Below are positions 9,353 through 63,635 of a stretch of 64,000 nt of DNA, in pieces. Numbering within the stretch: the stretch's first letter is position 1; each line of letters opens with the position of its first letter. The translations under genes were made by a program, and so were the position numbers. The stretch is from Diadophis punctatus similis. Its lineage: Eukaryota; Chordata; Lepidosauria; Squamata; Dipsadidae. Under the pieces are notes generated by a model that ran no database searches, was not told where the DNA came from, and saw only the letters and a list, made by a program, of their open reading frames with translations. Location: NCBI GenBank assembly GCA_023053685.1, contig JALIGW010000143.1:50001-114000 (forward strand), read 5' to 3'.

Positions 9353-9632
9353 TGTCCCAAAGTCACCCAGATGTCTTTCATGCCAAAACGGGACTAGAAC
9401 TCTCACCCCAACATCTTTCATGCCTAAGTCGGGACTAGAACTCACCGTCTCCTGGTGATTGTCCCAAAGTCACCCAGACGTCTTTCATGCTTAAGGCAGA
9501 ACTAGAACTCACCGTCTCTTGGTTATTGGCCCAAAGTCACCCAGCTGGCTTTCATGGCTAAGGTGACACTAGAACTCCAGTCTCCTGGTTTCTAGCCTGG
9601 TGCCTTGATCACTAGACCAAAGTGGGTCTCAA
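9353..9632 (-). mobile_element. tRNA SINE (second family) with internal unit repeated
   Basis: On the minus strand it begins with a tRNA-like head (gagacccactttggtctagt, then gatcaaggcaccaggctaga) and continues with repeated units of about 65 bp ending in 'gtgagttctagtcc...ggcatgaaag...gggtgactttgggaca'. About four partly decayed units are present. The same unit forms the 1.9-kb minisatellite at 61.6-63.5 kb. Confidence 0.75.
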
Positions 9633-10900: not shown

Positions 10901-11340
10901 GGCTTCACAGTCCGCTTCCTCCTCCTCATCTTCCTCCCCTTTTCCTCCTCCGCCTCCTCTTCACAAACCCCACTCCCTTCCAGCACTGATGATGTTACCT
11001 AGTTTGGTAATGAAACGTCCGCAAGAAAACAACCAAGCTCAGAGAGCACCAAAATCTTCACAGTCTTCCTTCTCCACCTCCTCTTCACACACCCCACTGC
11101 CTTCTAGCACTGATGATGTTACCTACTTTGGTAATGCAACATCTGCAAGAAAACCACCAAGCTCAGAGAGCACCAAGGACCCCCTCAGTTCAACCCTGAA
11201 CTACAAATATTCCCTTTTTGTCAGTAGTTACCATACTGTCAGATGTCCTTCCTTAAACACTTTGGGTACCAACGTCTTTAAGCAGCTAGCACACTTTCCT
11301 GATCAAAGTGCCCTGCAAGCTGGTTTAAATCCCTCTTCCT
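10901..11340 (+). mobile_element. PLE terminal tandem pair with hammerhead-like motifs
   Basis: Two copies of the PLE end lie head to tail. Motif 1 is at 10,984-11,021 (CTGATGA, stem II gttacc/ggtaat, GAAAC, GTC). Motif 2 is at 11,109-11,145 with GCAAC instead of GAAAC. Each is followed by caagaaaacaaccaagctca and a C/T-rich linker. The tail after the second (cccctcagttcaaccctgaa) recurs after the arrays at 29.3, 44.4 and 52.7 kb, so it is part of the element. Confidence 0.75.

Positions 11341-11526: not shown

Positions 11527-11560
<34 letters not shown>
11527..11560. repeat. (TG)n microsatellite
   Basis: A TG run immediately precedes the first tRNA-headed repeat unit on the plus strand. 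Equivalent TG runs precede units two and three and follow unit three, so the dinucleotide belongs to the repeated unit. Confidence 0.95.
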
Positions 11561-11562
<2 letters not shown>

Positions 11563-11718
11563 CATTTTTTGCTGATAAATGAAAATGAAGAGACACTATT
11601 ATAGATCTATTTCGAGCTATTTAGCTCTCATCAGATAGCCATACCCTTACTGGGATTTGAACCTGGGCTGCCTGCTTTGTAAGGCAGCAGCTTAACCTCT
11701 AGGCCACAGGCTAGAGGT
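11559..11718 (-). mobile_element. tRNA-headed SINE-like repeat with hammerhead, copy 1
   Basis: Read on the minus strand: agcctgtggcctagaggtta (A box tggcctagagg), ctgctgccttacaaagcag, then aggttcaaatccc (B box ggttcaaatcc, an exact match to the polymerase III B-box pattern), gtaagggtatggctat, the hammerhead at 11,594-11,640, and a tail tcattttcatttatcagcaa. The T-stem is imperfect, so this is a tRNA-derived repeat and not a tRNA gene. I do not recognise the family. It is followed by two more copies in the same orientation. Confidence 0.75.
11594..11640 (-). ncRNA. Hammerhead ribozyme fold, type I (copy 1)
   Basis: On the minus strand, 5' to 3': stem I strand ggctat; CTGATGA (11,628-11,634); stem II gagct/agctc with aaat loop (11,614-11,627); GAAA (11,610-11,613); stem III ata/tat around gatc within a palindrome (11,601-11,610); cleavage-site A at 11,600; stem I return strand atagtg, pairing with the ctat part plus one G-U. 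All core positions match the hammerhead consensus, and the predicted cut is between 11,600 and 11,599. The short stem III could instead work as a dimer. Activity is inferred from the fold only. Confidence 0.75.
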
Positions 11719-11745
11719 TTTTTTGTTGCGTGTGTGTGTGTGTGT
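11719..11745. repeat. T-run and (TG)n linker between repeat units
   Basis: The linker gaggtttttttgttgcg followed by TG repeats is nearly identical to the one after copy 3 (caggtttttttgttacg plus TG). This shows that the repeated unit includes the linker and that the copies arose by tandem duplication. Confidence 0.85.
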
Positions 11746-11905
11746 AGCATTTTTTGCTGATAAATGAAAATAAAGGGAGACCATTATAGATCTATTTCGA
11801 GCTATTTAGCTCTCATCAGATAGCCATACCCTTACTGGGATTTGAACCTGGGCAGTTTGCCTGTAAGGCAGCAGCTTAACCTTTAGGCCACAGGCTCTCT
11901 ACTCT
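11746..11905 (-). mobile_element. tRNA-headed SINE-like repeat with hammerhead, copy 2
   Basis: Same order as copy 1: A-box region tggcctaaagg, B box ggttcaaatcc, hammerhead, tail. The anticodon-arm region differs (gccttacaggcaaactgccc). Most of the sequence is identical to copy 1, as expected of a fairly recent tandem copy. Confidence 0.75.
11779..11825 (-). ncRNA. Hammerhead ribozyme fold, type I (copy 2)
   Basis: The core is intact: CTGATGA, stem II gagct/agctc, GAAA, the atagatctat palindrome, site A. The stem I return strand is atggtc against ggctat, which pairs along all six positions if two G-U wobbles are allowed. The one change from copy 3 (A to G in stem I) keeps pairing, a compatible substitution. 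Confidence 0.75.
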
Positions 11906-11986
11906 TATCAGCTCTTCACCAGGAAAGGGTTATATATGTTTTTTCTGTCGAATCATCCTGGTGTATAGGAGTCATCGAATCATCCT

Positions 11987-12035
<49 letters not shown>

Positions 12036-12039
<4 letters not shown>

Positions 12040-12192
12040 CATTTTTTGCTGATAAATGAAAATAAAGCGAGACTATTATAGATCTATTTTGAGCTATTTA
12101 GCTCTCATCAGATAGCCATACCCCTACTGGGATTTGAACCTGGGCCACCTGCCTTGTAAGGCAGCTGCCTAGGGCACAGGCTACAGGTTTTT
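12036..12192 (-). mobile_element. tRNA-headed SINE-like repeat with hammerhead, copy 3
   Basis: Same layout, with a small deletion in the A-box area (tgtgccctaggcagctgcc). The B box ggttcaaatcc is exact. It is preceded on the plus strand by a 50-bp TG run and followed by the same T-run/TG linker as copy 1. About 130 bp of extra DNA, with cgaatcatcctggtgt duplicated, separates it from copy 2. Confidence 0.75.
12071..12117 (-). ncRNA. Hammerhead fold with mutated core (copy 3)
   Basis: CTGATGA, stem II and the stem III palindrome are intact, and stem I (ggctat with atagtc) is the best of the three, six pairs with one wobble. But GAAA reads AAAA: the invariant G12 has become A (plus-strand position 12,090), a typical CpG decay change. 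This copy should not cleave. Confidence 0.7.
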
Positions 12193-12198
12193 TTGTTA

Positions 12199-12225
12199 CG
12201 TGTGTGTGTGTGTGTGTGTGTGTAA
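12199..12225. repeat. (TG)n microsatellite
   Basis: A TG run closes the hammerhead-repeat cluster and abuts the AATTTA-rich start of the next CR1. Confidence 0.9.
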
Positions 12226-17799: not shown

Positions 17800-18030
17800 T
17801 TTGAGCTTGGTGGTTTTCTTGCAGACATTTCATGACCCAACTAGGTAACATCATCAGTGTTGGAAGGGAGTGGGGTTTGCTCTCTGTTTGTATGCAAATG
17901 GCTTGCCCTGTCTTTATTGATGGGAATGTTGGTTTCTAGCAGGATCCTTAGTGCTGTTTGAGCTTGGTTGTTGTTGTTGTTTTGCAGACATTTTGTTACC
18001 CAACTAGGTAACATAATCAGTGCATTTAAA
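17800..18030 (-). mobile_element. PLE terminal pair with hammerhead-like motifs
   Basis: Two minus-strand motifs lie at 17,821-17,858 (CTGATGA, stem gttacc, tcatGAAAT, GTC) and 17,984-18,022 (CTGATTA, CAAAA core, decayed). Between them is the PLE phrase gggagtggggtttgctctctg and ggcttgccctgtc, seen reversed at 52.2 kb. Confidence 0.7.
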
Positions 18031-20689: not shown

Positions 20690-21835
20690 CACTTTTTTAT
20701 TTTGTATAAGGTGGCAAGCGTACCTAATGCTCCTTCCTTCTCCTGCTTTCCCCACAACCACCCTGTGAGGTGGGTTGGGCTGAGAGAGAGTGACTGGCCC
20801 AAGGTCATCCAGTTGGCTTTCATGCCTAAGGCAAGACTAGAACTCACCATTTCCTGGTGATTGGCCCAAAGTCACCCAGGCATCTTTTATGCCTGAGGCA
20901 GGACTAGAACTTACTGTCTCCTGGTGATTGACCCAAAGTCACCCAGCCAATTTTCATGTTTAAGGTGAGACTAGAATTCACCGTCTCCTGGTGATTGACC
21001 CAAACTCGCCCAGCTAGCTTTTATACCTAAGGCAAGACTAGAACTCTCCGTCTCCTGGTGATTGACCTCAAATCACCCAGCCGGCTTTCATGAGTAAGAT
21101 GGGCAGGGGTGGGCTGCTGGGGGTTCGCAGGGGTTCGGAAGAATCTTTAGCTAAGATTCTGTGCCATTCGGAGAACCCCCAAATCCCACTCCTGGCTGGC
21201 TCCTCCCACCCTGCCCCTCCCCTCCCAGGAGTCTCCACGAGGCCTGTTTTGGATGCAGGTAAGTGCAGTGCACGTGCGGAAGCTCGGGGAGGGCGAAAAA
21301 CGGGCCTACCGGAAGTTTGGGAAGGCCGGAGCTGACTGGTGCGTAGCTCCGGTAGGGAGCGGCCGATTGCGCAATTTGCGCACGACCGCTCCGGAGCCCT
21401 CTCTGCCGGTCCGTCACGCGTGTCGCTATCTTTTTATGTGAATTTTTGGGCAAAAATCGCACGAGGGGGCACGTGTGCGTAGCGAGCGCACACGCCCCCA
21501 AAACGTGGAGATGCGCGCACAGTGCACCGGCACCGGCAAGAAATCAACCCGCCACTGGGCTGGAAACAGGCCTCCGGAGCCTGGGGAGACCGTTTTCGTC
21601 CTCCCAGAGGCTCAAAGAAAGCCTTTGGAGCCCGGGTAGGGCAAAAACGCCCCACCCCCGCTGTGGTAGAGGATGCCGACTAGGCCATGCCCACCATGGC
21701 CACGCCCACCCAGCAACCGGGCAGAGATCCCCTTGCTTAAATTTTTGAAGCCCACCCCTGAAGGCGGGGCTAGAACTCACAGCCTCCTGGATTCTAGCCT
21801 GGCGCCTTGACCGCCAAACCAAACCAGCTCTCCTT
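20690..21835 (-). mobile_element. tRNA SINE (second family) with internal units, split by a hAT
   Basis: On the minus strand the tRNA-like head lies at 21,769-21,835 (gagagctggtttggtttggc, caaggcgccaggctagaat). The internal unit repeats about five times at 20,800-21,095. The 3' body lies at 20,690-20,800 (cccaacccacctcacagggt, ggaaagcaggagaaggaagg). A hAT element (21,104-21,760) splits the head from the units. Each unit contains the B-box-like gtgagttctagtc. Confidence 0.8.
21104..21760. mobile_element. hAT-like element, 657 bp, inserted in a SINE
   Basis: Termini CAGGGGTGGGCTGC and GAAGCCCACCCCTG are inverted. The target duplication is aagatggg (21,096-21,103) versus aaggcggg (21,761-21,768), 6 of 8 matching. 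GC-rich interior with many CpGs. No transposase recognised. Confidence 0.8.
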
Positions 21836-23671: not shown

Positions 23672-23806
23672 CAGGGGTCTTCAACCTTGGCAACTTTAAG
23701 CCTGGAGGACTTCAACTCCCAGAATTCCCCAGCCAGCAAAGCTGGCTGGGGAATTCTGGGAGTTGAAGTCCAACAGGCTTAAAGTTGCCAAGGTTGGAGA
23801 CCACTG
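23672..23806. mobile_element. Palindromic hAT MITE, 135 bp
   Basis: Starts caggggtcttcaaccttggc and ends gccaaggttggagaccactg. The two halves are near-perfect inverted copies meeting at ccagccagcaaagctggctgg. The flanking duplication is imperfect. Same family as the 135-bp elements at 32.35 and 41.2 kb. Confidence 0.85.
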
Positions 23807-25952: not shown

Positions 25953-26455
25953 GGTGATTTTGGGTCAAGAACCAGGAGACAGAGAGTTCTAGCCCGCCTT
26001 AGGCATGAAAGTCAGTTGGGTGATCTTGGGTCAATCACCAGGAGACGGTGAGTTCTAGTCCTGCCTTAGGCATGAAAGTCAGTTGGGTGGCTTTGAGCCA
26101 ATCATCAGGAGACGGAGAGTTCTAGTCCTGCCTTAGGCATGAAAGTCAGTTGGGTGATCTTGGGTCAATCACCAGGAGACGGTGAGTTCTAGTCCTGTCT
26201 CAGGCATTAAAAATATCTGGGTGACTTTGAGCCAGTCACCAGGAGACGGAGAGTTCTAGTTCTGCCTTAGGCATGAAAGTCAGTTGGGTGACTTTGAGCC
26301 AATCACCAGGAGACAGAGAGTTCTAGTCCCACCGTAGTCATGAAAGCCAGCTGGCTGACTTTGGGCCAATCACCAGGAGGCGGTGAGATCCAGTCTCGCC
26401 TTTGGTATGAAAGCTGGGTGACTTTGGGATAATCCCCAGGAGACAGTGAATTTTA
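25953..26455 (+). repeat. Minisatellite from a tRNA SINE internal unit (~65 bp)
   Basis: About seven units of the form gtgagttctagtcctgcctt, aggcatgaaagtcagttggg, tgatcttgggtcaatcacca. Same unit as at 9.4, 20.8, 50.5 and 61.6 kb but an independent expansion, judging from its own diagnostic bases (gtcagttgggtg). Confidence 0.9.
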
Positions 26456-31937: not shown

Positions 31938-32072
31938 CAGGGGTAGGCAAAGTTGGCTCTTCTATGACTCGTGGACTTCAACTCCCAGAATTCCTAAGCT
32001 AGCATGATTGGCTCAGAAATTCTGGGAGTTGAAGTCCACAAGTCATAGAAGAGCCAACTTTGCCTACCCCTG
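31938..32072. mobile_element. Palindromic hAT MITE, 135 bp, adjoining another hAT
   Basis: Starts caggggtaggcaaagttggc, ends gccaactttgcctacccctg. Flanks ccctagat (31,930-31,937) and ccctagac (32,073-32,080). With the previous element this makes three copies of the same 8-bp site in a row, showing two successive insertions at one target. Confidence 0.88.
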
Positions 32073-32350: not shown

Positions 32351-32485
32351 CAGTGTTTCTCAACCTTGGCAGTTTGAAGATGTGTGGACTTCAACTCCCA
32401 GAATTCCACAGCCAGCAACGCTGGCTGGGGAATTCTGGGAGTTGAAGTCCACACATCTTCAAACTGCCAAGGTTGAGAAACACTG
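32351..32485. mobile_element. Palindromic hAT MITE, 135 bp
   Basis: Starts cagtgtttctcaaccttggc, ends gccaaggttgagaaacactg. Flanks cgctagtt versus ccctagtc, 6 of 8. Almost identical to the element at 41,207-41,341. Confidence 0.88.
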
Positions 32486-36520: not shown

Positions 36521-38446
36521 TTTCCTGCAGCAAGTTGGTGTGGTGGGTTCTCCCACAGCAAGTTGGCTGTGGCAAGTTGACCATGGTGAGTTGACCATGG
36601 TGAGTTGGCCATGGTGAGTTGACCGTGGTGAGTTGGCTGTGGTGAATTTGTCATGGTGAGTTGACTGTGGTGAGTTTCATGGTGAGTTGACTGTGATGAG
36701 TTGGCCATGGTGAGTTGACTGTGGTGAGTTGACCGTGGTGAGTTGGCCATGGTGAGTTGGCCATGGTGAATTTGTCATGTGAGTTGGCTGTGGTGAGTTT
36801 CATGGTGAGTTGGCTGTGGTGAGTTGACCATGGTGAGTTGTCCGTGGTGAATTTGTCATGGTGAGTTAGCTGTGGTGAGTTTCATGGTGAGTTGGCTGTG
36901 GTGAGTTGACTGTGGTGAGTTGACCGTGGTGAATTGGCCATGGTGAATTGACTATGGTGAGTTGACCGTGGTGAGTTGGCCATGGTGAGTTGGCTGTGGT
37001 GAATTTGTCATGGTGAGTTGACCATGGTGAGTTGGCCTTGGTGAGTTGGCTGTGGTGAGTTGGCCGTGGTGAATTTGTCATGGTGAGTTGGCTGTGGTGA
37101 GTTTCATGGTGAGTTGACTGTGATGAGTTGGCCATGGTGAGTTGACTGTGGTGAGTTGATCGTGGTGAGTTGGCCATGGTGAGTTGGCCGTGGTGAATTT
37201 GTCATGGTGAGTTGGCTGTGGTGAGTTTCATGGTGAGTTGACTATGATGAGTTGGCCATGGTGAGTTGACTGTGGTGAGTTGACCGTGGTGAGTTGGCCA
37301 TGGTGAGTTGGCCATGGTGAATTTGTCATGTGAGTTGGCTGTGGTGAGTTTCATGGTGAGTTGGCTGTGGTGAGTTGACCATGGTGAGTTGTCCGTGGTG
37401 AATTTGTCATGGTGAGTTAGCTGTGGTGAGTTTCATGGTGAGTTGGCTGTGGTGAGTTTCATGGTGAGTTGACTGTGATGAGTTGGCCGTGGTGAATTGA
37501 CTATGGTGAGTTGACCGTGGTGAGTTGGCCATGGTGAGTTGGCTGTGGTGAATTTGTCATGGTGAGTTGACCATGGTGAGTTGGCCTTGGTGAGTTGGCT
37601 GTGGTGAGTTGGCCGTGGTGAATTTGTCATGGTGAGTTGGCTGTGGTGAGTTGGCTGTGGTGAGCTTCATGGTGAATTGACCGTGGTGAGTTGACCATGG
37701 TGAGTTGGCCTTGGTGAGTTGGCTGTGGTGAGTTTTATGGTGAGTTGGCCGTGGTGAATTTGTCATGGTGAGTTGGCTGTGGTGAGTTTCATGGTGAGTT
37801 TTATGGTGAGATGACCGTGGTGAGTTGGCTGTGGTGAGTTGGCTTGGTGAGTTGGCTGAGTTGAGTTGACCATGGTGAGTTGGCTGTGGTGAGTTTTATG
37901 GTGAGTTTTATGGTGAGATGAACGTGGTGAGTTGGCCGTGGTGAGTTGGCTGTGGTGAGTTTTATGGTGAGTTTTATGGTGAGATGACCGTGGTGAGTTG
38001 GCCATGGCGAGTTGACCATGGTGAGTTGGCCGTGGTGAATTTGTCATGGTGAGTTGGCTGTGGTGAGTTTCATGGTGAGTTTTATGGTGAGATTACCGTG
38101 GTGAGTTGGCCGTGGTGAGTTGGCTTGGTGAGTTGGCTGAGTTGAGTTGACCATGGTGAGTTGGCTGTGGTGAGTTTTATGGTGAGTTTTATGGTGAGAT
38201 GAACGTGGTGAGTTGGCCGTGGTGAGTTGGCTGTGGTGAGTTTTATGGTGAGTTTTATGGTGAGATGACCGTGGTGAGTTGGCCATGGCGAGTTGACCAT
38301 GGTGAGTTGGCCGTGGTGAATTTGTCATGGTGAATTGGCTGTGGTGAGTTTCATGGTGAGATGACCGTGGTGAGTTGGCCGTGGTGAGCTGGCCATGATG
38401 ATTTGGCCATGGCAAATTGGTCATGGTGAGTTGGCTATGGCAAGTT
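36521..38446. repeat. 14-bp minisatellite, main array (~135 units) with higher-order repeats
   Basis: Unit tggtgagttggccg and variants (gacc, gact, atgg), with 12-bp variants tggtgagtttca and tggtgagtttta. Two blocks of 281 bp (37,763-38,043 and 38,044-38,324) are nearly identical, and longer similarity links 36,640-36,860 with 37,080-37,400. All frames stay open because 14 bp times 3 gives a 14-codon period (such as ANSPWSTHHGQLTM). I regard this as non-coding. Confidence 0.95.
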
Positions 38447-38689: not shown

Positions 38690-39400
38690 TGTGGAGATTC
38701 TCAGTCATTCAGGTCATGGTTGTCCCAAAGACAATTGGACTTTGTTTTCCCTTGAAGACATTTCGCTTCTCATCCAAGAAGCTTCTTCCATTCTGACTGA
38801 ATGGTGGAGAATGGAAGTATTTATATTCCTTGCAGTCATCTGGTTGTTAGCACTCTTTCAGAGGATCGTGGATCCTAAGATAAACTTGGAGGTTTATCTG
38901 TGTCCTCAGGGTCAACTGAATAGTGCAAATGGGTGTGGAGCCTTCTTGAAACTGATGAAAACACTGTGTTGTAAAGAGGAGATAGGTGGTGTCATACACC
39001 CATCCACCCCGTGTTGAGAGTGGGCTGTTCAATCTTAATGTGAATGGCCTTTTTGACCCCTCTTTCAAACCAGCAGTCCTCTCTGTCCAAAATGTGGACT
39101 TTGCTCTCTTCAAAAGAGTGGCTTTGTCTTTCAAATGCAGACGGACTGCTGAATCTGATCCTGGTGGGTTTGTTCTCCTGTGTTGTGCCATGCGTTTGTG
39201 AAGTGGCTGTTTTATTTCTCCAATGTACAGATCTGCACATGTCTCGTTGCAACGCAGAAAGACTCTCAGAGAGAGTGATAATGACCAGATGCGAGGAGTA
39301 TCAATCCTTCCATCCTCCACCATTCAGTCAGATCTGAAGAAGCTTCTTGGATGAGAAGCGAAATGTCTTCCAGGAAAAACAAAGTCCAGTTGCCTTTTGA
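38690..39400 (-). mobile_element. Second PLE type with inverted hammerhead-like ends
   Basis: The minus strand encodes a GIY-YIG-like end (see next entry). Both ends carry the same terminal sequence in opposite orientation: minus strand at 38,757-38,790 and plus strand at 39,334-39,367. The right one reads CTGAAGA, stem gcttct/agaagc with a ggatg-type loop, GAAA, TGTC, a hammerhead-like core; the left copy is decayed (GGAAGA). The element differs in sequence from the CTGATGA family. Confidence 0.75.
38860..39255 (-). pseudogene. PLE GIY-YIG endonuclease-like domain remnant (second type)
   Basis: One frame shows 'ADLYIGEIKQPLHKRMAQHRR', 'DSAVRLHLKDK'; a second frame shows 'KVHILDREDCWFERGVKKAIH' and 'LEQP'-like text. 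Together these match the C-terminal GIY-YIG region of the PLE branch often called Neptune. Two frameshifts are needed, and no reverse transcriptase domain remains. Confidence 0.75.
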
Positions 39401-41182: not shown

Positions 41183-41558
41183 TAGCAATAGCAATAGCAC
41201 TTAGACCAGTGTTTCTCAACCTTGGCAGTTTGAAGATGTGTGGACTTCAACTCCCAGAATTCCACAGCCAGCAACGCTGGCTGGGGAATTCTGGGAGTTG
41301 AAGTCCACACATCTTCAAACTGCCAAGGTTGAGAAACACTGACTTAGACTTATATACCGCTTCATAGTGCTTTACAGCCCTCTCTAAGCGGTTTACAGAG
41401 TTCAGCATATTGCCCCCAACAATCTGGGTCCTCATTTTACCCACCTCGGAAGGATGGAAGGCTGAGTCAACCTTGAGCCGGTGAGGTTTGAACAGCCGAA
41501 CTGCTGAACTAGCAGTAGCCTGCAGTGCTGCATTTAACCACTGCGCCACCTCTGCTCT
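41183..41558 (-). mobile_element. Sauria-type SINE split by a palindromic hAT MITE
   Basis: SINE tail at 41,183-41,206 (agcaatagcaatagcactta) and body from 41,342 to 41,558, ending at the tRNA head (gcagaggtggcgcagtggtt on the minus strand). The MITE inserted into the tail end. Confidence 0.92.
41207..41341. mobile_element. Palindromic hAT MITE, 135 bp, perfect 8-bp TSD
   Basis: Flanked by acttagac (41,199-41,206 and 41,342-41,349), which is SINE sequence. Starts cagtgtttctcaaccttggc, ends gccaaggttgagaaacactg, with the centre at cagcaacgctggctg. The clearest example in the window: the empty site can be read directly from other SINE copies. Confidence 0.95.
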
Positions 41559-42349: not shown

Positions 42350-42489
42350 CAAGGGTGTCAATCTTGGGAACTAATAAGACTTGTGGACTTCAACTCCCAG
42401 AATTCCCCAGCCAGCATAGCATAGTTGGCTGGGGAATTCTGGGAGTTGAAGTCCACAGATCTTAAAATGGCCAAAGGTTAGACACCCCT
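42350..42489. mobile_element. Palindromic hAT MITE with 8-bp flank repeat
   Basis: Starts caagggtgtcaatcttggga, ends ggttagacacccct. gcatttag flanks both sides (42,342-42,349 and 42,490-42,497). Arms share ggacttcaactcccagaatt with the other palindromic MITEs; the centre contains an extra catagcatag. Confidence 0.85.
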
Positions 42490-44232: not shown

Positions 44233-44470
44233 TCTACTCCCTTACTACCACTTATGTGGCTGCTGCTGCTGCTGTGGCTCCACCTCCTCCTCTTTCTCCT
44301 CCTCTCTGCAAACCCCACTCTCTTATAGCACTGATGATGTTACCTAGTTGGGTCATGAAACGTCTGCGAGAAAACACCAAGCTCAGAGAGCCCCCAAGGA
44401 GCCCACATTTGAACCCTGAGCTACAAATATCCCCTTCTGTCAGGTCTCCGTCTGCCAGTTTAAAAAGCCT
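44233..44470 (+). mobile_element. PLE terminus with one hammerhead-like motif
   Basis: Motif at 44,329-44,367: CTGATGA, stem gttacc/ggtcat, GAAACGTC, with gca/tgc closing stem I. Preceded by caaaccccactctcttatag and followed by the PLE tail (ttgaaccctgagctacaaat). Confidence 0.75.
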
Positions 44471-49910: not shown

Positions 49911-50485
49911 CAGTGGTGAAATCCAAATCTTTTACTACCGGTTCTGTGGGCGTGGCTTGGTGGGCGTGGCAGGGGAAGGATACTGCAAAATCTCCATTCC
50001 CACCCCACCCTGGGGCCAGTCAGAGCAGGTGTTTACCGATTCTCCGAACTACTCAAAATTTCCGCTACCGGTTCTCCGAACTACTCAAAATTTCCGCTGC
50101 CGGTTCTCCGAACTACTCAAAATTTCCACTACCGGTTCTCCGAGCTACTCAAAATTTTCTCTACTGGTTCTCCGAGCTACTCAAAATTTTCTCTACTGGT
50201 TCTCCGAACTACTCAAAATTTTCGCTGCCGGTTCTCCGAACTACTCAAAATTTCCGCTGCCGGTTCTCCAAACTACTCAAAATTTCCGCTACCGGTTCTC
50301 TGAACTACTCAAAATTTTCGCTGCCTGTTTTCCGGACTACTCAAAATTTCTGCTACCGGTTCTCTGAGCTACTCAAAATTTTCGCTGCCTGTTTTCCGGA
50401 CTACTCAAAATTTCCGCTACTGGTTCTCTGAGCTACTCAAAATTTCCGCTACCGGTTCTCCAGAACCTGCTGGATTTCACCCCTG
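49911..50485. mobile_element. hAT-like MITE (ACCGGT subfamily) with internal minisatellite
   Basis: Starts CAGTGGTGAAATCCAA and ends GGATTTCACCCCTG. Flanks are imperfect (agtgtatc; actgtata one base further on). The subterminal segment is amplified into a 32-bp tandem array (next entry). Confidence 0.8.
50035..50470. repeat. 32-bp minisatellite inside a hAT MITE (~13 units)
   Basis: Unit ttctccgaactactcaaaat plus ttccgctaccgg, period 32 (for example 50,042, 50,074, 50,106). Variants ttttctctactgg and cctgttttccggac define sub-blocks. In family members at 30.3 and 57.6 kb the same unit is present once (accggtagcggaaactttga, tagttcagagaaccgg). Confidence 0.93.
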
Positions 50486-50504: not shown

Positions 50505-50852
50505 GGAGCCAGTTTGGCCTAATGCTGGCTGAGAAACCTGGAGACTGTGAGTTCTAGTCCCGCCCTAGGCATGAAAGCTGACTGGGTGAACTTGGGCTAA
50601 TCACCAGGAGACGGTGAGTTCTATTCCCCCCCTAGGCAAGAAAGCCAGCAGGGGGACTTTGGCCAATTACCAGGAGATCGTGAGTTCTAGTCCCATCTTA
50701 GGCAGGAAAGTATTCTGGGTGACTTTGGGCCAGTTACTCTTAGCCCAACTCACCTCAAAGGGTTGTTATGGGGAAAATAGGAGGAGGAAGGAAAATTATA
50801 GATATGTTCACCAGCTTGAGTTATTTGTAAAAGTAATAAAGGTGGGAAAAGA
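50505..50852 (+). mobile_element. tRNA SINE (second family), head-to-tail copy
   Basis: tRNA-like head gagccagtttggcctaatgc and gagaaacctggagactgtga; B-box-like gtgagttctagtcccgcc; three internal units; body with ctcacctcaaagggttgttatgg and ggaggaggaaggaaaattat; end near aaaagtaataaaggtgggaa. The best template for interpreting the minisatellite at 61.6 kb. Confidence 0.82.
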
Positions 50853-54299: not shown

Positions 54300-55292
54300 G
54301 TCCTCTATTAGCTATTAGGTGTTAGCTATTCCTGCCAGCTTAGTATCATCTGCAAATTTGGTTAGTTCCCCTTCTATTCCCTCATCTAGGTCATTTATGA
54401 AGATATTAAAGAGTACTGGGCCTAAGACGGAACCTTGTGGTACCCACTGCTTACTTCTCTCCATGTAGACTTAGACCCATTGAAGACTACTCGTTGAGTA
54501 CGGTTAGTCAGCCAGTTGTGAATCCATCTGGTTGTGTAGCTGTCTATCCCGCTTTTTTCTAGCTTATGAAGGAGTAGGTTGTTGTCTACTTTGTCAAATG
54601 CTTTGCTAAATTCTAGGTATATTATGTCTACTGCATTTCGCTGGTCTACTAATTTGGTCACAGTGTTGAAGAATGAAATGAGATTGGTTTGGCATGATTT
54701 GTTCTTAACAAACCCGTGTTGGCTGCTGGTTATTACTTTACATGTTTCTAGGTGATGGCAGATCTGTTTTTTAATTATCTTTTCCAGTATTTTCCTGGGT
54801 ATTGATGTTAGGCTGATTGGTCTGTAGTTTCCTGGGTCTGTTTTTTTTTCCTTTTTTGAAGATGGGAACCACATCAGCTCTTTTCCAGTCCTCAGATAGT
54901 TCCCCTGTGTTCCAGGATTTGTGGAAGATGTGGTGCAGTGGTTCTGAGATGACATCTGCTAGCTCCTTTAGGACTCTGGGATGTAATCCGTCTGGTCCTG
55001 GTGATTTGTATTCGTCAAGTTCAGACAGGTAATCGCTTACTGGTTTTTTGCTTATGTTAATTGTTGTTTCCAGTCTGTTTTTTGCAGTTGTGTTTCTGGT
55101 TAGTTGGGCGGCAGTTTCTTTCCGCGTGAAGACCGATGCAAAGAATGAGTTAAGCAACTCTGCCTTCTTTGTGTTGCTTGTTACTTCTTTGTTGTCTTCT
55201 CTCTTTAGTGGACCAACTGTTTTCTTGATTGTTTTCTTGTTATTTATGTGTTGGAAGAAACTTTTTTTTATTATCTTTGACTTTTGTTGCAA
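54300..55292 (-). pseudogene. CR1 ORF2 reverse transcriptase core (frameshifted)
   Basis: Motifs in order: 'KSPGPDGLHPRVLKELA', 'WKRADVVPIFKKGKK', 'NYRPISLTSIP', 'SSQHGFVKNKSCQTNLI', 'IIYLEFSKAFDKVDN', then PQGSVLGP- and [13 protein letters not shown] motifs (FADD at about 54,345-54,356) in other frames. Frame changes near 54,780-54,950 and 54,430 plus a TAA near 54,310 disable it. All catalytic aspartates are still encoded. Confidence 0.92.
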
Positions 55293-56282
55293 GTCTTTGT
55301 TCGTTCTGGGCCTTTCTTGTCCTGATTTTTTCTTTACAGATTCTGGCTATCTGTTGATACTCTGCCTTAGTTATGTGTCCCTCTTTCCATTTTTTGTATT
55401 TGTCCTTTTTTTCATTCAATTTGTCGATGAGGTCTTTGTGCAGCCATGCTGATTTCTTCTTGGATTTCTTGTTTTTCTTTCTCATCGGTATTGTGATGTT
55501 CTGGGCTTTTTTAATCGTGGTTTTCAGAGTTTCCCATGCTTCTTGAGTTGTTTTTCCCTTTAGGACTTTCATCCAAGGAATCTTTCCCAAGTTTTCTCTG
55601 AGTTTATTAAAATCAGCTTTTTTAAAATCTAAGACTTTGGTGTCGCTGTGTTGAATTGTTTGTGTTTGTGTTATGTTGAATTCTAGTATAACATGGTCAC
55701 TCTCACCCAATGTTCCTGCAGTTTCAACTCCTTCTATCACTTCTTCTCTGTTTGTAAGTGTTAAGTCCAGTATGGCTGTCCCTCTAGTTCCCTCCTCTAC
55801 CTTTTGGACAACAAAGTTGTCAGCAAGGTTGGTTATGAACCTATTTGATTTCTCACTTGGTGTAGGATTAGTTTTCCAGTTGATATTTGGGTAGTTGAAG
55901 TCCCCCATTATTACTGCAGTGTGTTTCCTACATATGTTCTTTAGTTGGTTGGCAAAAAGGATATCCATTTTTTCTGCTTGATTGGGTGGCCTATAGTACA
56001 CTCCTATTGTCATGTCATTTTTTTTTCTTTTATGTTGACCCATATGCATTCTAGGGGGTTTTCTTCTTTGGTTACATGTAGCTCTGTAGCAACATAGTGG
56101 TCCTTTACATACAGTGAAACTCCACCTCCTCTTTTATGTGTTCTGGTTTTTTTGAAGAGTTTGTATCCTTCTATCAGTATGTTGCAGTCGTGTGTTTCAT
56201 CCCACCAAGTTTCTGTTATTCCAACTATGTCATGTCTATCTTCATGCATTAATATTTCAAGTTCAAGTTCAAGGTTCCTCAA
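55240..56282 (-). pseudogene. CR1 ORF2 endonuclease domain (frameshifted)
   Basis: Motifs seen in order: 'DIVGITETWWDE' (catalytic Glu), 'RGGGVSLYVKD', 'IGVYYRPPNQ', 'VIMGDFNYPNINW' (catalytic Asp/Asn), 'LDLTLTNREEVI' and 'ESDHVILEFNI' (catalytic Asp-His). One frameshift lies near 56,010-56,050; otherwise the domain reads through. It would nick target DNA in an active element. Upstream ORF1 is absent. Confidence 0.92.
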
Positions 56283-61596: not shown

Positions 61597-63493
61597 AATT
61601 CTTAGGCATGAAAGCCTCCTGGGTGGCCTTGGGCCAATCACCAGGAGTCTGTGAGTTCTAGTCCAGCCTTAGGCACGAAACCTGGCTGGGTGATATAGAG
61701 CCAATCACCAGGAGAATGTGAGTTCTAGTCCAGCCTTAGGCATGAAAGCTGGCTGGGTGATATAGAGCCAATCACCAGGAGAATGTGCGTTCTAGTCCAG
61801 CCTCAGGCATGAAAGCCGGCTGGGTGATATAGAGCCAATCACCAGGAGTCTGTGAGTTCTAGTCCAGCCTTAGGCATGAAAGCTGGCTGGGTGATATAGA
61901 GCCAATCACCAGGAGTCTGTGAGTTCTAGTCCAGCCTTAGGCATGAAAGCTGGCTGGGTGATATAGAGCCAATCACCAGGAGAATGTGAGTTCTAGTCCA
62001 GCCTTAGGCATGAAAGCCGGCTGGGTGATATAGAGCCAATCACCAGTAGAATGTGAGTTCTAGTCCAGCCTTAGGCACGAAACCTGGCTGGGTGATATAG
62101 AGCCAATCACCAGGAGAATGTGAGTTCTAGTCCAGCCTTAGGCATGAAAGCTGGCTGGGTGATATAGAGCCAATCACCAGGAGAATGTGAGTTCTAGTCC
62201 AGCCTTAGGCATGAAAGCCGGCTGGGTGATATAGAGCCAATCACCAGGAGTCTGTGAGTTCTAGTCCAGCCTTAGGCATGAAAGCTGGCTGGGTGATATA
62301 GAGCCAATCACCAGGAGTCTGTGAGTTCTAGTCCAGCCTTAGGCATGAAAGCTGGTTGGGTGATATAGAGCCAATCACCAGGAGAATGTGAGTTCTAGTC
62401 CAGCCTCAGGCATGAAAGCTGGCTGGGTGATATAGAGCCAATCACCAGGAGTCTGTGAGTTCTAGTCCAGCCTTAGGCATGAAAGCTGGCTGGGTGATAT
62501 AGAGCCAATCACCAGGAGTCTGTGAGTTCTAGTCCAGCCTTAGTCATGAAAGCTGGCTGGGTGATATAGAGCCAATCACCAGGAGTTTGTGAGTTCTAGT
62601 CCAGCCTTAGGCATGAAAGCTGGCTGGGTGATATAGAGCCAATCACCAGGAGTTTGTGAGTTCTAGTCCAGCCTTAGTCATGAAAGCTGGCTGGGTGATA
62701 TAGAGCCAATCACCAGGAGTTTGTGAGTTCTAGTCCAGCCTTAGGCATGAAAGCTGGCTGGGTGATATAGAGCCAATCACCAGGAGTTTGTGAGTTCTAG
62801 TCCAGCCTTAGTCATGAAAGCTGGCTGGGTGATATAGAGCCAATCACCAGGAGTTTGTGAGTTCTAGTCCAGCCTTAGTCATGAAAGCTGGCTGGGTGAT
62901 ATAGAGCCAATCACCAGGAGTTTGTGAGTTCTAGTCCAGCCTTAGGCATGAAAGCTGGCTGGGTGATATAGAGCCAATCACCAGGAGTCTGTGAGTTCTA
63001 GTCCAGCCTCAGGCATGAAAGCTGGCTGGGTGATATAGAGCCAATCACCAGGAGTCTGTGAGTTCTAGTCCAGCCTCAGGCATGAAAGCTGGCTGGGTGA
63101 AATAGAGCCAATCACCAGGAGTCTATGAGTTCTAGTCCAGCCTCAGGCATGAAAGCTGGCTGGGTGATATAGAGCCAATCACCAGGAGTCTGTGAGTTCT
63201 AGTCCAGCCTCAGGCATGAAAGCTGGCTGGGTGATATAGAGCCAATCACCAGGAGACTGTGAGTTCTAGTCCAGCCTCAGGCATGAAAGCTGGCTGGGTG
63301 ATATAGAGCCAATCACCAGGAGAATGTGAGTTCTAGTCCAGCCTCAGGCATGAAAGCTGGCTGGGTGATATAGAGCCAATCACCAGGAGAATGTGAGTTC
63401 TAGTCCAGCCTTAGGCATGAAAGCTGGCTGGGTGATATAGAGCCAATCACCAGTAGAATGTGAGTTCTAGTCCAGCCTTAGCCATGAAAGCCA
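61597..63493 (+). repeat. 67-bp minisatellite, about 29 units
   Basis: Unit: ggctgggtgatatagagcca, atcaccaggagtctgtgagt, tctagtccagccttaggcat, gaaagct; exact period 67. Variants fall into sub-blocks (agaatg, agtctg, agtttg; ttaggc, tcaggc, ttagtc), showing stepwise local amplification. Each unit contains a B-box-like gagttctagtcc. It is an internal piece of the tRNA SINE at 50.5 kb. Confidence 0.96.
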
Positions 63494-63635
63494 GCTGGGT
63501 GACTTTGGGCCAGTTCTTCTCTCTCAGCCCAGCCCACCTCACAGGGTTGTTGTAGTAAGGAAAACAGGAGGAAGAAGGAGCATTAGGTATGGGCATCGCC
63601 TTATTTATAGCCAATAATAAAGGCAGGATGAAAAT
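63494..63635 (+). mobile_element. tRNA SINE (second family), 3' body after the minisatellite
   Basis: ctgggtgactttgggccagt, cccagcccacctcacagggt, tgttgtagtaagg, ggaggaagaaggagcattag, then aataataaaggcaggatgaa: the same 3' body as at 50,720-50,850, in phase with the last minisatellite unit. The tRNA head is absent upstream. Confidence 0.85.

Follow-up and report, generated by a model that had tools for sequence, protein, structure and literature searches.

A minus-strand cluster of tRNA-headed repeat units with a probable type I hammerhead and palindromic stem III in the snake Diadophis punctatus similis

Described hammerhead elements and their likeness to the cluster

A tRNA-derived SINE that carries a type I hammerhead is already known from schistosomes, in the form of Sm-alpha/Sj-alpha (PMC2770079 and PMC8490949, which, like the other papers below, are cited from parts of their text), and the Sm-alpha of Schistosoma mansoni is described as resembling tRNA-Gln-TTG (PMC2770079). 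The cluster described here lies in a 64-kb window, by which we mean the whole stretch of DNA that was analysed. It shares with Sm-alpha/Sj-alpha the tRNA-like head and the type I hammerhead, a likeness of description and not of sequence. It differs from them in a stem III palindrome that suggests dimer action, in the AC repeat at its 3' end, and in its vertebrate host. In addition, the Sm-alpha-like unit W36.2_W001 is given as 335 bp in the cited part of PMC8490949, against a spacing of 185 bp in the cluster.

The metazoan non-LTR retrozymes of cnidarians, mussel, and axolotl are described as short tandem non-coding units with type I hammerheads and RNAs of ~170–400 nt (PMC7229834), and a review likens them to SINEs (passages of PMC7761336). 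The vertebrate retrozymes need dimers for higher rates: single axolotl hammerheads are weakly active, and their cleavage improves greatly when they are placed in dimeric constructs; in one of the families, helix III is very weak and closed by a palindromic tetraloop (passages of PMC7229834). The 185-bp spacing of the two abutting copies in our cluster fits the reported RNA size, whereas the third copy lies 292 bp away and lacks G12, and the cluster comprises three units only. The cited passages of PMC7229834 use “tRNA” solely for tRNA processing and ligases, not for a promoter or head, and “SINE” is absent from the paper.

Within squamates, a hammerhead is described in the Penelope-like retroelement PAc/Poseidon of Anolis carolinensis (PMC11167929). 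According to the cited sections of that paper, reverse transcription by the Penelope-like protein begins within an AC-rich stem-loop and not at the RNA end, which bears a likeness to the AC-repeat ends of the cluster units. The same sections report that hammerhead mutants had no effect on insertion in vitro and that no RNA-seq reads began or ended at the cut site, and these results call for caution on whether cleavage matters for mobility. The ORF of the Penelope-like element is described as starting at stem II, whereas the ATG in the core of the cluster hammerhead (ATG AGA GCT AAA TAG) is followed by a stop after four codons; the 10-nt palindromic stem III is a further difference. Direct reading of the sequence gave no RT and GIY-YIG ORF starting at the cluster hammerhead, and no stop-to-stop ORF of at least 120 aa was found overlapping the cluster.

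The squamate SINEs Squam3 and Sauria SINE have tRNA-derived heads and simple-repeat tails (parts of PMC7983390 and PMC13295347). Compared by description, the tails given there are (TAAA)n, (CTT)n, (GTT)n, (ATT)n, poly(A), and (ACCTTT)n, in contrast to the (AC)n of the cluster. The word ribozyme is absent from PMC13295347, and ribozymes go unmentioned in the background and early results of PMC7983390. Besides the one in PAc/Poseidon (PMC11167929), amniote hammerheads are described as isolated intronic or 3'-UTR motifs, with intronic ones in reptiles (PMC6155905, in part). In the open-licence literature, we found no report of a squamate SINE with a hammerhead.

Units, hammerhead segments, and predicted folding

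As the preliminary description had stated, three related units lie on the same strand. This is the minus strand, and all three fall within one 0.7-kb cluster between 12.2 and 11.55 kb (Table 1). Read 5' to 3', a full unit begins with a linker GYAACAAAAAAACCTST and a tRNA-like head; the hammerhead segment comes next, and the AT-rich tail CATTTATCAGCAAAAAATGYT after it leads into an AC repeat. In shorthand, the linker is GYAACAAAAAAACC and the 3' end is CATTTATCAGCAAAAAATGCT(AC)n. The linker is confined to copies 1 and 3. Copy 2 is spaced 185 bp from copy 1 and copy 3 is spaced 292 bp from copy 2, so that only copies 2 and 1 abut, joined by an AC tract. The start of copy 2 is separated from the AC tract of copy 3 by ~90 bp of other sequence, and its 5' flank is unlike that of copies 1 and 3. 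When target-site duplications and dispersal were considered within the window, the copy ends were found to merge into TG tracts, with all three copies clustered. Between copies 2 and 3, at 11948–11991, a 17-nt sequence, TCGAATCATCCTGGTGT, occurs twice, 27 bp from start to start.

Table 1. Features of the cluster (positions in the window)
Feature	Position	Strand	Remark
Copy 1: linker GCAACAAAAAAACCTCT, tRNA-like head, hammerhead, AT-rich tail	11555..11729	-	
Copy 2: tRNA-like head from AGCCTGTG, hammerhead, tail	11740..11896	-	
Copy 3: linker GTAACAAAAAAACCTGT, head, hammerhead, tail	12032..12199	-	Head lacks 7 nt across the A box (deletion)
Copy 1 A box TGGCCTAGAGG	11696..11706	-	1 mismatch to the consensus TGGCNNAGTGG
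Copy 1 B box GGTTCAAATCC	11653..11663	-	1 mismatch to the consensus GGTTCGANTCC
Copy 2 A box TGGCCTAAAGG	11880..11890	-	2 mismatches
Copy 2 B box GGTTCAAATCC	11838..11848	-	
Copy 3 B box GGTTCAAATCC	12130..12140	-	
Copy 1 hammerhead, intact core, stem I 5 bp	11595..11640	-	Predicted cut between 11600 (A17) and 11599
Copy 2 hammerhead, intact core, stem I 6 bp	11779..11825	-	Predicted cut between 11785 (A17) and 11784
Copy 3 hammerhead fold	12071..12117	-	G12 to A at 12090
Copy 1 TTTT, possible pol III stop	11582..11585	-	Starts 15 nt past A17
Copy 1 3' tail CATTTATCAGCAAAAAATGTTACACAC, then AC repeat	11555..11581	-	Tail also at 11740-11766 and 12032-12058
TG/AC dinucleotide tract adjoining the tail of copy 3	11988..12037		
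Similar TG/AC tracts bounding other units	11528-11560, 11730-11745, 12200-12223		

The type I hammerhead consensus comprises the core CUGANGA and GAAA, an A15.1–U16.1 pair, and a residue other than G at position 17. Copies 1 and 2 agree with this core throughout, in the order CTGATGA, stem II, GAAA, ATAGATCTAT, A17, and the return strand of stem I, whereas copy 3 departs from it at G12. Both have three stems with an open stem I, of 5 or 6 bp (I), 5 bp (II), and, in single-strand form, 3 bp (III); in the two-strand, or dimer, form stem III reaches 10 bp. The palindrome and the 5-bp stem II with its AAAT loop are present in all three copies, as had been described, and the reported loss of G12 from copy 3, in an otherwise identical motif order, was borne out. 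Because of this change to A, the hammerhead of copy 3 is expected to be dead; the stem I of copy 1 lacks the outermost pair and is weaker. The motif CTGATGAGAGCTAAATAGCTCGAAA is found without change in copies 1 and 2 and with a single mismatch in copy 3; 100 shuffles gave 0 matches.

Stem I had been credited with differences that preserve pairing. One A-to-G change, which turns A-U into G-U in copy 2, is of this kind but is not covariation, and the 6-bp stem holds for copies 2 and 3 but not for copy 1, whose return strand reads ATAGTG. No compensatory changes were found in the hammerhead stems, for which there are three close copies only. Per copy pair, the hammerhead segment shows 3 differences (50 columns), the tail 0 or 2 (37 columns), and the part from the B box to the hammerhead 0 or 1 (25 columns). 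The head shows 12–22 differences per 57–58 columns, a figure that is overstated since the alignment did not place the deletion of copy 3. Judged from its sequence, the hammerhead fold on the minus strand is probably genuine.

The predicted folding depends on whether one strand or two are considered. For single strands, the hammerhead form has energies of −4.8, −5.7, and −6.1 kcal/mol in the three copies, against −9.4, −9.9, and −9.2 kcal/mol for the minimum-energy folds, and in the best single-strand fold the palindrome pairs with part of stem I and the core. The probability of the single-strand stem III is 0.0 for every copy in the stretches folded, single-copy (copies 1 and 2) and multi-copy alike, and the 45–47-nt stretches are no more stable than shuffles (z about −1.2, with single-strand folds as the only shuffled control). 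The earlier wording of a “textbook” hammerhead was thus too strong, as the single-strand form lies 3.1–4.6 kcal/mol above the minimum and Rfam scores it below its cut-off.

For two identical strands, in contrast, the minimum-energy structure of every copy is a double hammerhead joined by a 10-bp shared stem III (−25.8, −27.6, and −28.4 kcal/mol), and copy 3 with its changed G12 is no exception. The shared stem III has a probability of ~0.5 in the native stretch of copies 2 and 1, and of 0.7–0.8 between these two copies in the three-copy stretch; the palindrome of copy 3 pairs with the other copies with a probability of 0.01–0.03. The dimer stem I is mostly displaced in multi-copy stretches (probability at most 0.01 on one side and 0.2–0.4 on the other). 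Altogether, the palindrome favours a dimeric ribozyme and its surroundings partly oppose one, since the double hammerhead is the two-strand minimum while stem I is displaced in native stretches. Within these folding models, the palindromic stem III suggests dimeric action, as in amphibian retrozymes.

The consensus A and B boxes of pol III promoters are TGGCNNAGTGG and GGTTCGANTCC, respectively. The B box GGTTCAAATCC is identical in the three copies, as first noticed, with one consensus mismatch in each. The A box reported as shared, TGGCCTAGAGG, is exact only in copy 1; copy 2 has TGGCCTAAAGG in its place, and in copy 3 the 7-nt deletion has removed the A box. Mismatches to the A-box consensus amount to 1, 2, and 4 in copies 1, 2, and 3, with A-to-B spacers of 32, 31, and 25 nt. 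Judged by its boxes, a tRNA-like head is present but weaker than first described, with a good A box in two of the three copies and a B box in every one. ARAGORN found no tRNA, and the Rfam tRNA model gave 16.3 bits for copy 3 and 14.9 for copy 1 (cut-off 29), with copy 2 unlisted. The TTTT of copy 1 has counterparts from 11770 in copy 2 and from 12062 in copy 3, each likewise starting 15 nt past A17, and is the sole run of at least four Ts per unit as scanned. A pol III transcript that ended there would contain the whole hammerhead and no tail, which weakens a simple pol III-SINE picture.

Competing accounts of the cluster and other repeats in the window

The reading that we prefer, with a probability of roughly 0.55, is that of a small, tandem, non-coding, tRNA-headed retroelement with a genuine type I hammerhead whose palindromic stem III has it cut as a dimer, in the manner of a retrozyme or of Sm-alpha. 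The preliminary description had arrived at a retrozyme-like SINE. A fold too complete for chance, the tRNA-like head of copies 1 and 2, and the 185-bp spacing speak for that description, whereas the TTTT opposes a full-length pol III transcript.

The cluster could also derive from a linear tRNA-derived SINE of the ordinary kind, which a LINE would copy by way of the 3' hairpin and the AC-repeat tail, and in which an inherited hammerhead rides along as a near-idle passenger. The tRNA-like head, the AT-rich 3' segment, and the dinucleotide tail are all consistent with this account, as is the small 3' hairpin (AGCA/TGCT) predicted in folds of copy 2. Copy 3 has kept its 3' half well apart from the loss of G12, and an internal cut would presumably part the promoter from the tail. 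An idle passenger, however, would not lead one to expect every core residue in two of the three copies and the 10-nt palindrome in all of them, and the copies do not stand singly but form a cluster in which two abut. Moreover, the 27-nt tail (at most 3 mismatches) was found nowhere else in the window, so that no partner LINE is seen. We consider the linear SINE a doubtful, if still serious, candidate. LINE remains with RVT_1 reverse transcriptase and Exo_endo_phos_2 endonuclease pieces lie at 54422–56133 on the minus strand.

Under local tandem duplication, or a small satellite, slippage between TG tracts would have multiplied one degenerate, immobile element on the spot. In favour of this, the copies occupy no more than 0.7 kb and have TG/AC tracts at their borders, and window searches with three probes (the B-box region, the hammerhead core, and the tail, at most 3 mismatches) each returned the three places in the cluster and no further copy in the 64 kb. 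A simple tandem duplication does not predict the unequal spacings (185 and 292 bp) or the distinct 5' flank of copy 2, and we regard this explanation as unlikely. Tandem arrays of other kinds occur in the window: a 14-bp unit with ~137 copies (36575–38440), a 32-bp unit with 13.5 copies (50034–50466), and arrays of 66–67-bp units that by eye look related to one another (61601–63502, 9403–9589, 20790–21092, 25953–26444, and 50536–50737). The largest of the latter has 28.4 copies at 96%, and some hold GAGTTCTAGTCC, which resembles a B box.

The scores and counts bear on whether a repeat sequence might fit the hammerhead consensus by accident. Hammerhead_1 (RF00163) is the top-scoring Rfam family over the hammerhead segment of every copy, with 23.3 bits for copy 2, 19.7 for copy 1, and 17.6 for copy 3, all of them below the cut-off of 34. 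At the scale of the whole 64 kb, two copies were given E values of 0.38 and 5.7, the third was unlisted, and no Rfam family matched anywhere in the window at its own cut-off. We also used a strict descriptor of the type I hammerhead (the core, a stem II of 4–6 bp, and at least 3 bp in stem III and 4 bp in stem I) and a random sequence generated as a first-order Markov chain with the dinucleotide make-up of the window. The descriptor found two places in the window, namely copies 1 and 2. It had no match in a matched random sequence of 200 Mb, and over 12.14 Gb it had 3 with a stem I of at least 5 bp and 14 with at least 4 bp. This corresponds to ~3e-5 (at least 5 bp) to 1.5e-4 (at least 4 bp) chance matches expected per window on both strands, before the full palindrome and the fit to a dimeric ribozyme are counted. 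Chance is unlikely because two places in one window compare with 3 in 12.14 Gb, while the count alone is no proof, since about one random match is expected per vertebrate genome (several Gb, both strands). With the sub-threshold Rfam scores, this expectation, and a loose core (CTGANGA then GAAA) matching 20 times in the window against an expected mean of 7.67 on one side, and the rarity of strict matches on the other, we consider accidental resemblance very improbable. A pattern scan of viral contigs gave 0 matches for two patterns, and three bacterial or archaeal genome matches to a pattern of 18 specified bases were judged to be chance given the size of the collection.

The window also holds dispersed repeats at 10986, 29186, 33689, 44331, 52294, and 52612 on the plus strand and at 17857, 52008, and 57892 on the minus strand, which have CACTGATGATG..stem..GAAACGTCTGC in common and open a frame from an ATG (MMLPSWVMKRLREN at 44331). 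Their sequence resembles the hammerhead of a Penelope-like element together with the start of its ORF. Our alignment took 9 of 11 similar matches from a CTGANGA/GAAA scan, and core retention among the aligned copies is a selection effect, since the scan required both motifs; a further copy, at ~11111, is without GAAA. In the register chosen, an additional base separates A9 from stem II in these repeats. In the nine aligned copies, no stem pair is changed on both sides, so that there is no covariation, and 83.8% of cells pair, a value equal to that of shuffles, compared with 17–44% when the partners are slid. A derivation of the cluster hammerhead from these repeats was unsupported, as by eye there is no likeness beyond CTGATGA and GAAA, and it is also disfavoured by the extra base between A9 and stem II and, by eye, by the different sequence after the hammerhead.

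Further features of the window include an inverted end pair, 38751–38789 (minus) and 39334–39370 (plus), with GAAGAAGCTTCTTGGATGAGAAGCGAAATGTCTTC in common, that flanks a minus-strand ORF piece at 38847–39323. This piece resembles a Penelope-type GIY-YIG endonuclease by eye and was given no family by Pfam; a hammerhead-like CTGA occurs only in the plus-strand end of the pair. Five stretches (23698–23780, 31964–32046, 32377–32459, 41233–41315, and 42376–42463) match Rfam mir-5408 on both strands with 55–68 bits (cut-off 90) and probably belong to a dispersed repeat that is palindromic and akin to this microRNA entry.

Proposed processing and its implications

If the cluster represents a tandem element cut as a dimer, a transcript of adjacent copies would fold pairwise into a double hammerhead that shares the 10-nt palindrome as stem III. 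One cut would then be expected after A17 of each copy, and cleavage of the tandem would free units of ~185 nt with the tail first and the head last. These units could be ligated into circles and then reverse transcribed, as has been proposed for metazoan retrozymes (following the retrozyme literature, parts of PMC7229834). We infer the transcription, cleavage, ligation, and mobility of the element in this way from its architecture.

A bolder version would make the cluster a squamate self-cleaving SINE, with transcription by pol III from the tRNA head, a double-hammerhead cut, circles of ~185 nt, and copying by a Penelope-like element, with reverse transcription begun internally within the AC-rich segment, which would yield tandem insertions. 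We hold this version to be improbable as a whole, and the Penelope-like copying in it is put forward as a proposal because we found no sequence tie to a Penelope-like element. If true, a single amniote element would unite features of SINEs, retrozymes, and Penelope-like elements.

For the preferred reading of a tRNA-headed element with a dimer-type hammerhead, the implication is that the Sm-alpha kind would extend from flukes to land vertebrates. Such an amniote element would permit a direct test of self-cleaving SINE-like mobility, including the mobilisation of retrozymes by Penelope-like elements that is suggested in the cited part of PMC7229834.
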